A DNA stretch of 64,000 nucleotides from Oscillibacter sp. (GTDB taxonomy: Bacteria; Bacillota; Clostridia; Oscillospirales; Oscillospiraceae), in contig JAAVZX010000063.1 in NCBI GenBank assembly GCA_022791875.1, forward strand, positions 1 through 64,000, read 5' to 3'. The position numbers and the translations under genes were made by a program. Shown piece after piece: positions 15,601-19,097 of this stretch (the first letter of the stretch is position 1; the number at the start of each line of letters is the position of its first letter). A model generated the notes under the pieces. The model had not been told where the DNA came from and ran no database searches. It saw nothing but the letters and a program-made list of their open reading frames with translations.

Positions 15601-18266
15601 ACTTGAATTGGGTGCTCTGTCTCATCGTAAGTGATATTATCATTATCACCTTTGACTTCCTTCACAATGAAGTTATACAGGGTTCCGCTTTCGCTTCCGG
15701 CATAGTTATTGCTGTCAACAATAAAACGAATAACACCATTGTTATCGTTGGTCGACTCAGCAACTGGTACCTTGGTATCTGCATTCAATAACTGGAACTT
15801 GAATGCCATATTATCTAGAACCTGAGATTCCTTCTTTACACCCAGCAGCTGTTTGTTAACCTCAATAGACCATGCGTTGTTGCTTTCCTCACCAGGAGTC
15901 AAAGTCCCCAAAAACAGCGCGCCATTGCAAGCAACGCCGCCGCCATGGGTCTTGCTGCTGTTTCCGCTAATCGTAACTCTAGGTGTTTGGTCTTTGAACT
16001 TCGGGGTACCTGCTGCGGTTAGGCCCAAAGACCCCCTTCCAAGAACAAACCACTTTCCTTCTGGAATAGTAACTTCATAGCCTGCGCTGACGTTTCCAGA
16101 CGGATAAGAGGCACGGCCTTTCCACCCCTCCGGCTGTCCCTGCACAGCAGAAGAATCTACACAATAGAAGTCCATTGCAAGCTCTTTTGTAAATCCTTTG
16201 TCGCCAGCAGCTACATAATCGCCAGTGCCATCTTTCATGTCCCAAAGGGAAGACGTTTCCCCAAAGGGCCAGATTCCCTTTGCTTCATTACCATAAATTA
16301 TAGCGCCGTCCATAAGAGTCATGCCGATATTTGCATGGGGACATCCCGACACGCCGCCACCGAAACCATCAGCAGAGTTGCCATTGATTTCAACGAGGGT
16401 AATTCTCAGGTCTGCGTAGGAGTTAACATAAACTCCACCGCCGCCCCAGTCGGTAGCTGTATTGCAGTGGTTGTTCTCAATTACGCCGCCGGTAATAACA
16501 TTTCTTGCGTCGCCCTTAGGATCTGAGCGTTTGCTTCCAATCCAAATGCCGCCACCTTCACCAGCACGGTAAGAAATGGCGTTTGGATTTGCAGGATTGA
16601 CCCATGTTTCTCCGCCTTGTGCTGTGAAGTTGTTGCTGACAGTACCGCCAGACATATTCAGTGTGCCACCAGGCGCTCCGGCCTGATTATCATGCACATA
16701 AATGCCGCCGCCTTTGTTGGCAGTATTCCCGTCAATCATGCCACTGGACATATTCAACGTGCCATGTTCGAGATAAACGCCGCCGCCAGCGTAGTAAGCT
16801 TCATACCACTTATTATACGAACCATTACTATTGTACTTGCTACCGGTTTCTATCGTGGTTCCACTTCCACCAGTAACAGTAACATCCCGCAGGTTTACTG
16901 TTGCGCCGCCCTTGATATGGATAACACTGCCAGTCCGGGTACTAGCAATGCCGGTTGTTTCATCAAATACAGCGCCGCCGTCAATGGTACCCTTACCAGA
17001 GATATTTACCGTCCCGCTGGTGTTGATCACAAACCGGCCTCTTACGGTGCCGCCATCTGGAATGACAAGATTACCGCCAGAGTTAACGGTATACACACCA
17101 TTCTTATCCGGCTTCATTTCTTTGCCGTCAAAGATAGGCCGTACATCCGCCAGCGTCACCGAAGCCAGCCCGAACGCCTCGATCAGCGCGTTATAGGCGC
17201 TGAGGAACTCCTCCGTCGCCTGTTCCGCCTCGCTCAGGGTATCCAGCAGCTCCATGACCCGCGTGTTGTACGCCTCCATGGCCGCGTTCAGCTCTTCCTC
17301 GCTGGTGAACGTCCGGGTTTCCAGCTCCGCGATCATCGCGTTCGCCGCCGCCACGAACTCCTCCAGCCGGTCATACACCACCACATTCCAGGTATAGGTG
17401 AAGGTGCTGCCGTCCTCGCTCTGATCAGAGAGGAACGTGCCGCCGGGTTCGTCGTCCGGGGCTTCGGAAGCATCCGGGGGCTCCGGGGCATCGGGGGCAT
17501 CCGGGGTGCTGGAGGTATCCGGACCCGCGGGTTCAGTCGGCCCCTCCGGCTCAGTCGGGCCTACGGGATCAGTCGGCCCCTCCGGATCAGCCGGGTCCAC
17601 GGGGTCGGTCGGTCCCTCCGGATCAGCCGGGTCCACGGGGTCGGTCGGTCCCTCCGGGTCAACCGGGTCTACAGAATCAGTCGGTCCCTCCGGATCAACC
17701 GGGTCCACGGGATCGGTCGGCTCTTCCGGGTCAACTGGGTCTACAGGATCAGTCGGTCCCTCTGGGTCAACCGGGTCCACGGGATCGGTCGGCTCTTCCG
17801 GGTCTGCCGGGTCCACGGGATCGACCGGTTCCTCCGGGTCAGCCGGGTCCACGGGATCGGTCGGCTCTTCCGGGTCTGCCGGGTCCACGGGATCGGCCGG
17901 ATTCTCCGGGTCGGCCGGGTCTGCAGGATTGATTGGTTCTTCGGGGTTCTCTGGAGCCTCAACTTCCCGCACGATAGTAAGCGTAACGGTGGCTTTGCCC
18001 GTTTTCAGGGCGGTGCCCACGCCGTTCTCGTCCACGCTGAGGACTTCGGGATTGCTGGAGGTCCAGGTCCCGTTCTCCAGGTCTGCGACTTCTGCGCCGA
18101 AGTCATAGGTCGTCTGAGTGCTCTCCCCGTCTTCGTTTACGGTCCACAGGGGGATCTCGACGTCCCCGATGCCGCCCTCCGCCGCGAACGCGGGAAGCTG
18201 GAGGAAGCCCAGGCACATCACAAGGACGAGCACCCACGAGGTTGCGCGTTTGCCCATAGTTTTCAT
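12696..18266 (-). CDS. Giant wall-anchored adhesin with beta-helix and Cna-B/FctA-like domains, riboswitch-controlled
   Basis: A start at 18266 (AAAGGA upstream) gives 1856 aa. The order is: a signal peptide ending near LPAFAAEGG; a BIG2-like Ig domain (TWTSSNPEVLSVDENGVGTA); an acidic Asp-Pro repeat stalk (about 104-275); a coiled helical segment; and a beta-helix (NGVYTVNSGGNLVIPDGGTV, NISGKGTIDGG, DNQAGAPGGTLNMSGGT). Then come FctA-type pilin domains (TLYNFIVKEVKGDNDNITYDE), Cna-B/SpaA domains (VTVEKEWKGG, EGVTFELTKKDE, LKEGTYILTETKVPDGYD) and a Pro-rich linker. The C-terminus has VPLDEAPATGDES, a hydrophobic helix and GGRKKEEEQ, a sortase-type signal with PATGD instead of LPxTG. No sortase lies in the window. 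It is preceded by two c-di-GMP-I riboswitches, so surface display is probably linked to the sessile/motile switch. Confidence 0.9.
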   Translation of the reverse strand: MKTMGKRATSWVLVLVMCLGFLQLPAFAAEGGIGDVEIPLWTVNEDGESTQTTYDFGAEVADLENGTWTSSNPEVLSVDENGVGTALKTGKATVTLTIVREVEAPENPEEPINPADPADPENPADPVDPADPEEPTDPVDPADPEEPVDPVDPADPEEPTDPVDPVDPEGPTDPVDPVDPEEPTDPVDPVDPEGPTDSVDPVDPEGPTDPVDPADPEGPTDPVDPADPEGPTDPVGPTEPEGPTEPAGPDTSSTPDAPDAPEPPDASEAPDDEPGGTFLSDQSEDGSTFTYTWNVVVYDRLEEFVAAANAMIAELETRTFTSEEELNAAMEAYNTRVMELLDTLSEAEQATEEFLSAYNALIEAFGLASVTLADVRPIFDGKEMKPDKNGVYTVNSGGNLVIPDGGTVRGRFVINTSGTVNISGKGTIDGGAVFDETTGIASTRTGSVIHIKGGATVNLRDVTVTGGSGTTIETGSKYNSNGSYNKWYEAYYAGGGVYLEHGTLNMSSGMIDGNTANKGGGIYVHDNQAGAPGGTLNMSGGTVSNNFTAQGGETWVNPANPNAISYRAGEGGGIWIGSKRSDPKGDARNVITGGVIENNHCNTATDWGGGGVYVNSYADLRITLVEINGNSADGFGGGVSGCPHANIGMTLMDGAIIYGNEAKGIWPFGETSSLWDMKDGTGDYVAAGDKGFTKELAMDFYCVDSSAVQGQPEGWKGRASYPSGNVSAGYEVTIPEGKWFVLGRGSLGLTAAGTPKFKDQTPRVTISGNSSKTHGGGVACNGALFLGTLTPGEESNNAWSIEVNKQLLGVKKESQVLDNMAFKFQLLNADTKVPVAESTNDNNGVIRFIVDSNNYAGSESGTLYNFIVKEVKGDNDNITYDETEHPIQVRVTRRTDKFIIGAFPSSKEQQWKDTGKYIITHTSSAELVSPKDGVTIKNYVKEGSLSISKSLVNSSLAKAGEQFTFDIEIKGLPNGTYSGITFTNGKGTVTLTYTEDGQQMVKTIKGLPAGAAFTVTERDVENYTTASQKVQSGTIGPDGPEGVVTTPVVKFVNERDTANLVVKKVVNRNETTSKPAPKDDTFEITVTLGNGSGEKTEVKSADNTAAYVENGVYVFTLKDNGTSGETGTITGIPTKTAYKVEETKINGTDYENTNKDILAAGGTVVKDLPIVNVNNHYFNVKTTDVTVEKEWKGGDNFKPDFITVQLYRDGELCENTPSLILNEKNGWTNGWKDLPMYAEESSTEAYAYTAREVSVTYPTEVPEGKTVYTADKRDGNIIRVRSGVEAADGSGNEIVGGWIVSDSNSVDTEGKITLTNQWRGKEDLGDAFFSVLKVDSETKDPIEGVTFELTKKDETVPEGEEKFLDTQTTDADGKVSFEGLKEGTYILTETKVPDGYDANGNVGRTWEIVFERESAEKVRLESVKEIGLVDENGNDNTILGENTWTWNPVGNGEVEIKNGEITIENQVIKGSLQLTKVMELDGTTVRHTDFRGYSFTFDLYEGRLNTQEAIDAATPTGEPLELKGYGSGATSKTIEDLRYGWYTLVERTPEDHKDAYTWKGVRYLANEDRDGLTNIAEGNFAVITDADKNVIAYQVKVVGQDETYGITATNMYTRGLGELKITKTLSGNNTETNKLWAFTVALESPQDYVTLADSYSVTYSDGRTGTASRTSGGRYTGIAMAGGVTATLHGLPIGVSYRVTEDEANLNDYATTAQKNGAPSRSLSVTGTVEADETDDIVFDNYRNRTPDGPTPGRPGTPPGTPNTPTPETPDVFVPETPTPLANVPEEFVEVPAEDVPLANLPEEEELEIPEEDVPLDEAPATGDESRRGLWLSLALSSGMAMLWLALGGRKKEEEQ
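17440..17955 (-). repeat. In-frame tandem repeat of Asp-Pro stalk
   Basis: About ten or more near-identical 36-base units encode variants of DPVDPEEPT / DPVDPEGPT inside the adhesin gene. Low divergence between units points to recent slippage or recombination, so stalk length is likely variable between strains. Confidence 0.85.
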
Positions 18267-18310
18267 CTTCTTAAATTCCTTTCTTTGCACTGTTCTTGCG
18301 CGGACGCAAA

Positions 18311-18393
18311 GAATCCGGTAACCGAACGAGCATGGCGCCAGGATGCGCAGTAGCCTCTGGTTTTGCGTCCCGCCGTTTCCGGCGGTTTGCCTG
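18311..18393 (-). ncRNA. Cyclic di-GMP-I (GEMM) riboswitch, gene-proximal copy
   Basis: On the minus strand the conserved GEMM core is present: GGCAAACC, stem CCGCCG-GAAA-CGGCGG with a GNRA loop, then GGGACGCAAAACC, a variable P3 arm, and CGGTTACCGG at the 3' side. This is the class I c-di-GMP aptamer architecture. It ends about 45 nt before the adhesin ATG. The spacer can form CTTTGC..GCAAAG immediately before the AAAGGA ribosome site, suggesting translational control. No clear intrinsic terminator is seen. Whether ligand turns expression on or off cannot be read from the sequence. Confidence 0.88.
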
Positions 18394-18486
18394 AGTTTGC
18401 AACCGGTCGTGCATAGCGTCCGCTTCCGCAGCCGCGACAGCGCCTGGCTTTGCGTCCCATCGTTTCCAATGGTTTGCCCATCTGCG
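18394..18486 (-). ncRNA. Cyclic di-GMP-I (GEMM) riboswitch, distal copy in tandem
   Basis: The second aptamer lies directly upstream of the proximal one. It has GGGCAAACC, stem CCATTG-GAAA-CGATGG, GGGACGCAAAGCC, a P3 arm, and GACCGGTTGC at the 3' side. The P2 stems of the two copies differ by compensatory changes (CCATTG/CGATGG versus CCGCCG/CGGCGG), good evidence for a conserved RNA structure. Tandem GEMM aptamers are known in some Clostridia and can sharpen the response. Confidence 0.88.
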
Positions 18487-18500
18487 CCTTTGCCGGGGGT

Positions 18501-18566
18501 TCACGCCCCGCCGCCAACGGCGCTCATAACGGCGGGCCGCCTCCACGGCGGTGCATCACCTGACAT
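18501..18566 (-). CDS. Possible 21-aa leader peptide upstream of the riboswitches
   Basis: ATG at 18566 follows a near-ideal ribosome site (AAAGGAGGAG, 6-base spacer) and encodes MSGDAPPWRRPAVMSAVGGGA. Its stop lies about 15 bases before the distal aptamer and its ribosome site is about 10 bases after the AP2 gene stop. No homologue is recognised. The strong ribosome site argues for translation, and ribosomes here could influence folding of the distal aptamer. It may instead be a truncated gene start. Confidence 0.4.
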   Translation of the reverse strand: MSGDAPPWRRPAVMSAVGGGA

Positions 18567-18599: not shown

Positions 18600-19097
18600 T
18601 CACTCAGCCGCACGGGCCTGTTCCGCGGAAGGCCCGTATGCGGCGAATTCCCTCAAAAATGTATCGTGCAGCTCCTCCTCGCCCCGCTTCCGGGCCTTGA
18701 CGGCGTCGTCGAAGAGGCGGTAGCAGCCCAGGTAATGGCGCTTGCCCTTGAAGCAGATGGAGGCGCGCCAGCGCTGCTTGCTGGCCACCCAGTCCACGCC
18801 GGGGATGCCGCTGGTGTTGTTCCGGCGCACGGTTTTGGCGCGGAGCATCTCCACGCAGGTGCCGTCCACGTAGGTCAGGCCCCGCAGGTCCACGCCGGGG
18901 GCGGCGCCCGGCCCCAGGCAGCCGCAGCTTGCGGTGTGGCCGGTCCGGAGGCGGCTGGTGCGCACCACGGCCTCCCCGCCGCAGTCGCAGCGGCACCGCC
19001 AGGCGGTTCTCCCGCCCACGTTTTCCGCGGCTTCCAGAACCGTCAGCTTTCCGTAGCGCTGTCCGATCAAATCCAGTTTCTTCCTGGAGTGTTCCAT
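18600..19097 (-). CDS. Zinc-ribbon plus AP2-domain DNA-binding protein
   Basis: The start at 19097 follows CAGGAGGCCCTTT and fits the promoter at 19172-19200, giving 165 aa. Residues 10-60 hold YGKLTVLEAAE and Cys pairs CRCDC (35-39) and SCGC (58-61), a probable zinc ribbon. Residues about 90-150 form an AP2-type domain (NNTSGIPGVDWVASKQRWRA, SICFKGKRHYLGCYRLFDDA). Such proteins are common in gut Firmicutes and are related to DNA-binding parts of homing endonucleases; no nuclease motif is seen. Lying upstream of and codirectional with the adhesin leader, it could be a regulator of the surface island or a domesticated mobile gene. Confidence 0.8.
   Translation of the reverse strand: MEHSRKKLDLIGQRYGKLTVLEAAENVGGRTAWRCRCDCGGEAVVRTSRLRTGHTASCGCLGPGAAPGVDLRGLTYVDGTCVEMLRAKTVRRNNTSGIPGVDWVASKQRWRASICFKGKRHYLGCYRLFDDAVKARKRGEEELHDTFLREFAAYGPSAEQARAAE

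Follow-up and report, generated by a model that had tools for sequence, protein, structure and literature searches.

Fused c-di-GMP-I aptamers and a single predicted pseudoknot platform in the leader of an Oscillibacter adhesin gene

Tandem c-di-GMP-I (GEMM-I) aptamers are well documented. In the accessible part of one survey, more tandems are recorded for c-di-GMP-I than for any other class; these 347 doublets and 12 triplets are placed under multiple expression platforms and treated as independent serial switches (PMC9481103). The same text describes homologous aptamers with one platform for the glycine and NAD+-I riboswitches, and some candidates with overlapping coordinates were discarded there as false positives or single riboswitches (PMC9481103). 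According to the portion available of a further study, serial arrangements of complete riboswitches are enriched in the c-di-GMP class (PMC12452182). A literature search at the level of titles and abstracts, with most subscription papers and preprints outside its scope, returned no report of fused c-di-GMP-I arrays or of the platform described below.

The window analysed here is the whole stretch of 64,000 nt. On its minus strand, read 5' to 3', a short upstream ORF (uORF), two aptamers, a platform (18317..18277) and an adhesin gene follow one another (Table 1). The initial annotation had placed two complete GEMM cores head to tail in this leader and had proposed a search with the Rfam covariance model as a check. 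Both cores scored above the RF01051 cut-off of 35 bits, the downstream aptamer with 62.4 bits in the whole-window cmscan and the upstream aptamer with 49.5 bits, the same score being obtained when the stretch was scanned alone. Of the two matches, which share 7 nt, only the stronger appears in the whole-window cmscan at gathering scores, presumably because the best of overlapping clan matches is kept. In a narrow scan the upstream aptamer region was assigned to c-di-GMP-I-GGC (RF03167) at 38.2 bits, below the cut-off of 59 for that family. The pocket bases G, A and C (20, 47 and 92) are present in both aptamers in the RF01051 alignment; we take position 11 of the model to be 'G20', the specificity base, and A47 and C92 likewise to follow the Vc2 numbering.

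Table 1. Features of the adhesin leader and gene in the window; the pseudoknot and its parts are predicted
Feature	Position	Strand	Remark
Short uORF MSGDAPPWRRPAVMSAVGGGA, possible leader peptide, Pro-Pro-Trp	18501..18566	-	strong Shine-Dalgarno
Upstream (distal) c-di-GMP-I aptamer	18395..18488	-	RF01051 49.5 bits; pocket G18478, A18451, C18399
Linker, 7 nt, ligand-pairing C of aptamer 1 to position 11 of aptamer 2	18392..18398	-	measured
Downstream (proximal) c-di-GMP-I aptamer	18314..18401	-	RF01051 62.4 bits; pocket G18391, A18364, C18318
Pseudoknot stem 1, 5' strand CGGAU	18313..18317	-	begins right after ligand-pairing C; in 81 distinct leaders
Pseudoknot stem 2, 5' strand CUUUGC	18306..18311	-	within loop of stem 1
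Pseudoknot stem 1, 3' strand GUCCG	18301..18305	-	platform comparison
Loop 3, 12 nt	18289..18300	-	4-14 nt across 81 distinct platforms
Pseudoknot stem 2, 3' strand GCAAAG	18283..18288	-	exact complement of CUUUGC
Shine-Dalgarno AAAGGA	18277..18282	-	abuts stem 2
Secreted adhesin, 1856 aa	12696..18266	-	Big_2, FctA, Cna_B, SpaA, DUF7601 domains; LPXTG_double wall anchor

P2 reads CCAUUG/CGAUGG in one aptamer and CCGCCG/CGGCGG in the other, while GGCAAACC, GAAA and GGGACGCAAA are unchanged, so the compensatory substitutions around conserved core motifs that had been pointed out initially are seen in both aligned aptamers. P3 also differs in length and sequence; with these differences in P2 and P3, the two aptamers do not look like an assembly duplicate. 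The model scores and the reappearance of this layout in other leaders exclude chance, and, judged from its sequence, the feature is two complete c-di-GMP-I aptamers, fused, on the minus strand. The gene that follows, with its start codon at 18266, agrees with the wall-anchored adhesin described at the outset in both its length and its LPXTG_double anchor, which scored 51.3 against a curated cut-off of 48.

The platform was compared across 106 groups of leaders from 102 sources, identical arrays being merged before counting. Its near-invariant consensus is CGGAN, CUUUGC, NUCCG and then GCAAAG abutting the Shine-Dalgarno sequence, with AAAGGAA immediately 3' of GCAAAG in 65 of 86 leaders. Searched in the form CGG(A/G), 1-4 nt, YUUUGC, N, YCCG, loop, GCAAA(A/G), it was found in 68 of 82 multi-aptamer groups and in 18 of 24 groups with one detected core, all gathered without using the platform. 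Among the other 14 multi-aptamer groups, L158 agrees with a more relaxed form of the platform, stem 2 is retained with one G-U pair in L192 and L206, and L194, L215 and L218 retain GCAAAG with a long loop 3. In L100 and L105 the platform is located after a third aptamer, and the leaders of L141, L145 and L216 run past the contig end. L108, L157 and L175 lack the platform although the sequence is present, both stems failing in L157. In a further leader, L155, stem 1 is broken. The long loop 3 of L194 and L215 measures ca. 38 nt, with GCAAAG and the Shine-Dalgarno sequence still present. As a measure of specificity, the 86 congeneric genomes contain CTTTGCRTCCG..GCAAAG 27 times, in 24 cases within ca. 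300 nt of an RF01051 match, against a single occurrence of the reversed control.

Since the MAFFT alignment shifts a few rows by one column, stem pairs were counted directly, in 81 distinct leaders selected for having this platform. The fifth pair of stem 1 was standard in 73 of the 81 platforms and mismatched in 8, against a shuffle mean of 64.3 (0 of 5000 shuffles as high), and the pair types were T-A, T-G, C-G, G-C and A-T (Fisher, main four types, p = 0.006); these statistics ignore relatedness among the platforms. Stem 2 read CUUUGC/GCAAAG in 78 of the 81, was changed on both sides to UUUUGC/GCAAAA in one, and carried a one-sided, pair-keeping change in two (partner GCAGAG or GCAAGG). The covariation support for stem 2 is thus one two-sided and two wobble changes, the stem being near-invariant. 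Loop 1 was 1 nt in 62 of the 81 platforms and 4 nt at most. A 1-nt loop that crosses a six-pair stem is a known feature of H-type pseudoknots, and the platform reads as a predicted pseudoknot of this type. The initial annotation had proposed that CTTTGC pairs with GCAAAG adjoining the ribosome site and that control may be translational. The two strands are exact complements, and in the 81 leaders, which were chosen by their platform, the pairing is either identical or altered only by substitutions that preserve it. Because of this conservation beside the Shine-Dalgarno sequence, translational control is the best reading, and for the adhesin gene it is a well-supported prediction. The segment at 18306-18311 (CUUUGCGUCC) also complements the aptamer core GGACGCAAAG, and an empty core could compete for it; the core reads GCAAAG in 163 of 190 cores of platform leaders.

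The layout recurs in the same genome, which has nine RF01051 matches over the cut-off. Eight of them are arranged as four tandem pairs, with overlaps of 7-10 nt. These pairs are the window, two divergent leaders on C57 (L090) and one on C58 (L091), where the tandem faces a single aptamer on the opposite strand; the C57 and C58 leaders share the platform. An RF01051 match was present in 39 of the 86 congeneric genomes, and overlapping same-strand matches in at least 11. Outside the genus, a fused pattern, in which a second core begins 3-13 nt past the GGNYGC end of the first, picked out 81 stretches among 84,980 species, one genome each, 80 of which were retrieved (L141-L220). Of these, 78 are labelled as Clostridia, under other Bacillota names or as unnamed bacteria, the two exceptions by label being Candidatus Aegiribacteria (L175) and a Proteobacteria MAG (L210). 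Many of the carriers are probably gut commensals, judging by the record names and the collections to which they point. Four fused aptamers are present in Flintibacter muris DSM 110149 (L199). With a narrower pattern, 2 of 250 family genomes matched, namely that of the window and one from a different genus. Among the matches listed outside the window's genus, the closest same-strand gaps were 36-70 nt, with no overlap of model hits, and a thin spacing control in other genera gave 2 same-strand neighbours in 38 loci; the fused pairs of other genera were found by pattern scans. The lenient signal-peptide test was passed by all 83 readable proteins downstream of the leaders. The ORF that follows the plus-strand leader of L090 (C57:5878-6108) ends at 118 aa, possibly through a frameshift or an assembly error; most other leaders precede large proteins.

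A stricter core pattern missed cores, and many groups scored as single were pairs, so a recount was made with a looser one. Under the looser pattern, the 91 platform leaders from the 102 sources carry one core in 8 cases, two in 46, three in 31, four in 5 and five in 1; L100, L105 and L137, among the eight one-core leaders, belong to longer arrays by other scans. In 83 platform arrays, 80 linkers measured 2-7 nt, 30 measured 8-11 nt and 10 were longer, so that 110 of 120 fell within 2-11 nt (7 of 127 were unmeasurable). The stricter pattern gave 68, 26 and 6, i.e. 94 of 100 within 2-11 nt, with 4 unmeasurable. Both patterns require CAA(A/G) and the linker measures also C at 92, variants there being uncounted, and the looser one puts a few of the first or last bases in the wrong place (in L106, L146, L170 and L213 it disagrees with the stricter). 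The conclusions on linkers and pocket bases were the same under both. Position-specific aptamer lineages were considered but found no support, the last aptamer being closer to other last aptamers than to its own first in 28 of 67 cases.

We consider it quite probable from these comparisons that the locus is a fused c-di-GMP-I riboswitch whose two aptamers, through one shared translational platform, control the wall-anchored adhesin. The 7 nt between the window aptamers leave no space for a platform, and the one present starts with the first nucleotide beyond the ligand-pairing C of the last aptamer, where P1 would sit. P1, the helix closing the aptamer, lies outside the RF01051 model. Its pairing was weak in stand-alone aptamers (31% against 16% in shuffles, z 2.1, n = 35, a set that includes three fused-array aptamers, L078, L084 and L087). 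In arrays, with positions set by the stricter core pattern, the same weak test gave no P1 pairing above shuffles for first (z -0.4, n = 67), middle (z 0.8, n = 33) or last aptamers (z -1.3, n = 68). Since no P1 partner was seen, stem 1 may replace P1 beneath the bound ligand, and ligand binding and the pseudoknot would then be coupled. Ligand occupancy would then influence how readily ribosomes reach the site, by changing how often the RNA adopts the pseudoknot, the presumed repressed state, rather than another fold. Upstream aptamers have no platform of their own and might act, like those of the glycine riboswitch, by affecting how their neighbours fold. Two further pairings were tried and discarded. 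An outer helix around the whole array, between the 5' flank of the first aptamer and the 3' flank of the last, gave no clear signal (z 1.4), and a pairing of CUUUGC with the 5' GCAAAG of the window leader, which would span both aptamers, was by visual inspection not conserved in the other leaders compared.

A different arrangement would be two riboswitches in series, each with its own platform and together pseudo-cooperative, which would give a more digital response. The survey cited above classes its doublets and triplets in this way (PMC9481103), and the accessible description of Bc3-5 does the same (PMC4759541). A terminator or ribosome site cannot fit into 7 nt, nor into the 2-11 nt of nearly all linkers, and we regard independent switches as very improbable here. 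It is also unlikely, if less so, that the last aptamer alone functions and that the upstream copies are duplication relics or spacers. Such a view agrees with the platform being touched only by the last aptamer, with the lower score of the upstream copy in the window, and with the one-core platform leaders, three of which are really longer; L091 is single by RF01051 too. Against it, the upstream copy keeps its core and pocket, exceeds the cut-off and shows compensatory changes in P2, and position 11 was G in the first aptamer of 61 of the 64 arrays with distinct platforms. The last aptamer of these arrays has G in 28, A in 25, C in 10 and T in 1; a first G with a last non-G occurred in 35 arrays and the reverse in 2. 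With the looser pattern, the first aptamer had G in 77 of 83 arrays, the last had G in 35, A in 33, C in 12 and T in 3, and the two orders occurred 45 and 3 times. Among L090-L107 and L141-L220, the specificity base is mostly G in the first aptamer and often A, C or T downstream. We know of no ligand for the C-pocket type. An A at this position marks cGAMP-type aptamers in the part of the survey available (PMC9481103), and the frequent A in last aptamers could mean that the arrays read two ligands, c-di-GMP in G-pocket and 3',3'-cGAMP in A-pocket aptamers. Both window aptamers have G where cGAMP (GEMM-Ib) aptamers have A, and Bc2, apparently with A there, responds to c-di-GMP according to the accessible text (PMC4933901). 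Of 43 listed GGDEF matches, 30 were examined and the motif was found in 28, two of genome G371 being misfits. We took the Hypr site to be the D of GHxxGD. In all 28 motifs, which come from 14 of the 15 genomes with arrays, this residue is the canonical Asp, and in none is it the Ser that marks Hypr-type cGAMP synthases in the available text (PMC6456294), the search having covered the Hypr type only. A second ligand is improbable, and tuned affinity of the pockets seems likelier. Two GGDEF matches in the genome of the window make production of c-di-GMP by this organism likely.

For the shared-platform riboswitch, we lean only slightly towards ligand favouring the pseudoknot and switching the gene OFF, because stem 2 abuts the ribosome site and no conserved hiding element was found. 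The opposite sign, in which the unliganded fold would hide the Shine-Dalgarno sequence and the pseudoknot or the bound fold would expose it, is a distinctly possible outcome, though not the one we expect. Folding of the window leader points in this direction, its Shine-Dalgarno sequence being unpaired with probability 0.25 when free and 0.79 with the knot imposed, and the adhesin gene cap is under an ON switch in B. thuringiensis, as far as the accessible text goes (PMC4933901). Across the 86 leaders, however, the hiding element is not conserved. The site was unpaired below 0.3 in the free fold of the full leader in 14% of them, and imposing the knot raised access by more than 0.3 in 13% and lowered it likewise in 6%. 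Nested folding of these leaders showed no consistent change, with mean values of 0.63 when free and 0.64 with the knot imposed, and stem 1 itself reached a probability of only 0.12-0.14. Forcing stem 1 with stem 2 open cost ca. 5 kcal/mol on average, and the six stem-2 pairs were worth -5.3 in a test hairpin; by this crude model without pseudoknots, the states would be roughly balanced.

The uORF was compared in 105 leaders, those with less than 170 nt upstream being left out. A start preceded by a Shine-Dalgarno sequence and followed by an in-frame Pro-Pro within 12 codons was found in 62 of the 105, against 21 and 16 in the other frames. The residue after Pro-Pro was Trp in 26 of the 62 and Gly in 15. 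A Pro-Pro uORF was present in 1 of 65 c-di-GMP-I aptamers without the platform, a control unmatched for base composition. Conservation as a protein was rejected, the same-sense fraction outside the Pro codons being 0.33 in frame and 0.45 and 0.22 in the other frames; an earlier in-frame value of 0.57 had been inflated by selection on PP. Since no coding constraint was seen outside PP, a conserved element would be an early pause rather than a protein, and we treat this pause as a lead only. In the accessible text of a study of a B. subtilis efp mutant, PPW had the highest EF-P dependence of three motifs (PMC5885033). A 165-aa protein with similarity to phage HNH-endonuclease families (PHROG 374, 5.7e-30) is encoded at 18600-19097 on the minus strand and ends 33 nt before the uORF start; it had no NCBIfam match, and a longer reading had no Pfam match.

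One way to combine these elements, which we put forward as speculation and think doubtful, is that the arrays work as RNA integrators, which would count the occupancy of their two to five pockets in an AND-like manner. CUUUGC would pair either with GCAAAG at the ribosome site or with the same sequence in an aptamer core, so that empty aptamers would compete and the pseudoknot would form only once all cores are occupied. With pocket bases that change along the array, from G in the first aptamer to A, C or T in later ones, affinities would be graded or a second ligand would be read, and ribosome pausing would be brought in through the Pro-Pro-Trp/Gly uORF.

The initial annotation was right on the elements and on the likely level of control; the fusion, the shared platform, the predicted pseudoknot and the wide spread go beyond it. 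The digital or two-threshold response that it had suggested is conceivable. What appears to be new is the architecture, i.e. fused aptamers with a single predicted pseudoknot platform and wide conservation. Ordinary annotation has a blind spot here, as overlap removal conceals some members of fused arrays: cmscan with this option displays two of four aptamers in L199, three of four in L166, two of three in L148 and one of two in each L090 pair. The layout connects c-di-GMP with large surface proteins of Clostridia, and the arrays offer a direct test of cooperation between fused c-di-GMP aptamers, for which Flintibacter muris DSM 110149 is a usable named strain.

Compared with known systems, the arrays share with c-di-GMP-I (RF01051) the core, the pocket bases, the P2/P3 layout and the association with adhesins, and differ from it by fused aptamers, by the lack of a P1 signal in a weak test and by a predicted pseudoknot abutting the Shine-Dalgarno sequence. 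Bc2, which precedes the adhesin gene cap, resembles them in the c-di-GMP-I control of a surface adhesin, but the accessible text describes one aptamer with a transcriptional anti-terminator, shown to be ON (PMC4933901), whereas the arrays are fused and their control is predicted to be translational. Bc3-5 of Bacillus thuringiensis likewise has several c-di-GMP-I aptamers per leader, but comprises, in the text available, three complete riboswitches with terminators (PMC4759541), whereas one predicted translational platform would serve all aptamers here, and the 7 nt between those of the window do not provide each with its own. The tandem glycine riboswitch differs in ligand and fold, and the relatives described here reach five aptamers. 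Its arrangement of homologous, adjacent aptamers with one platform is found in the window, with a 7-nt linker and a single platform after the last aptamer, and several aptamers feeding one platform would give c-di-GMP-I a glycine-like architecture.
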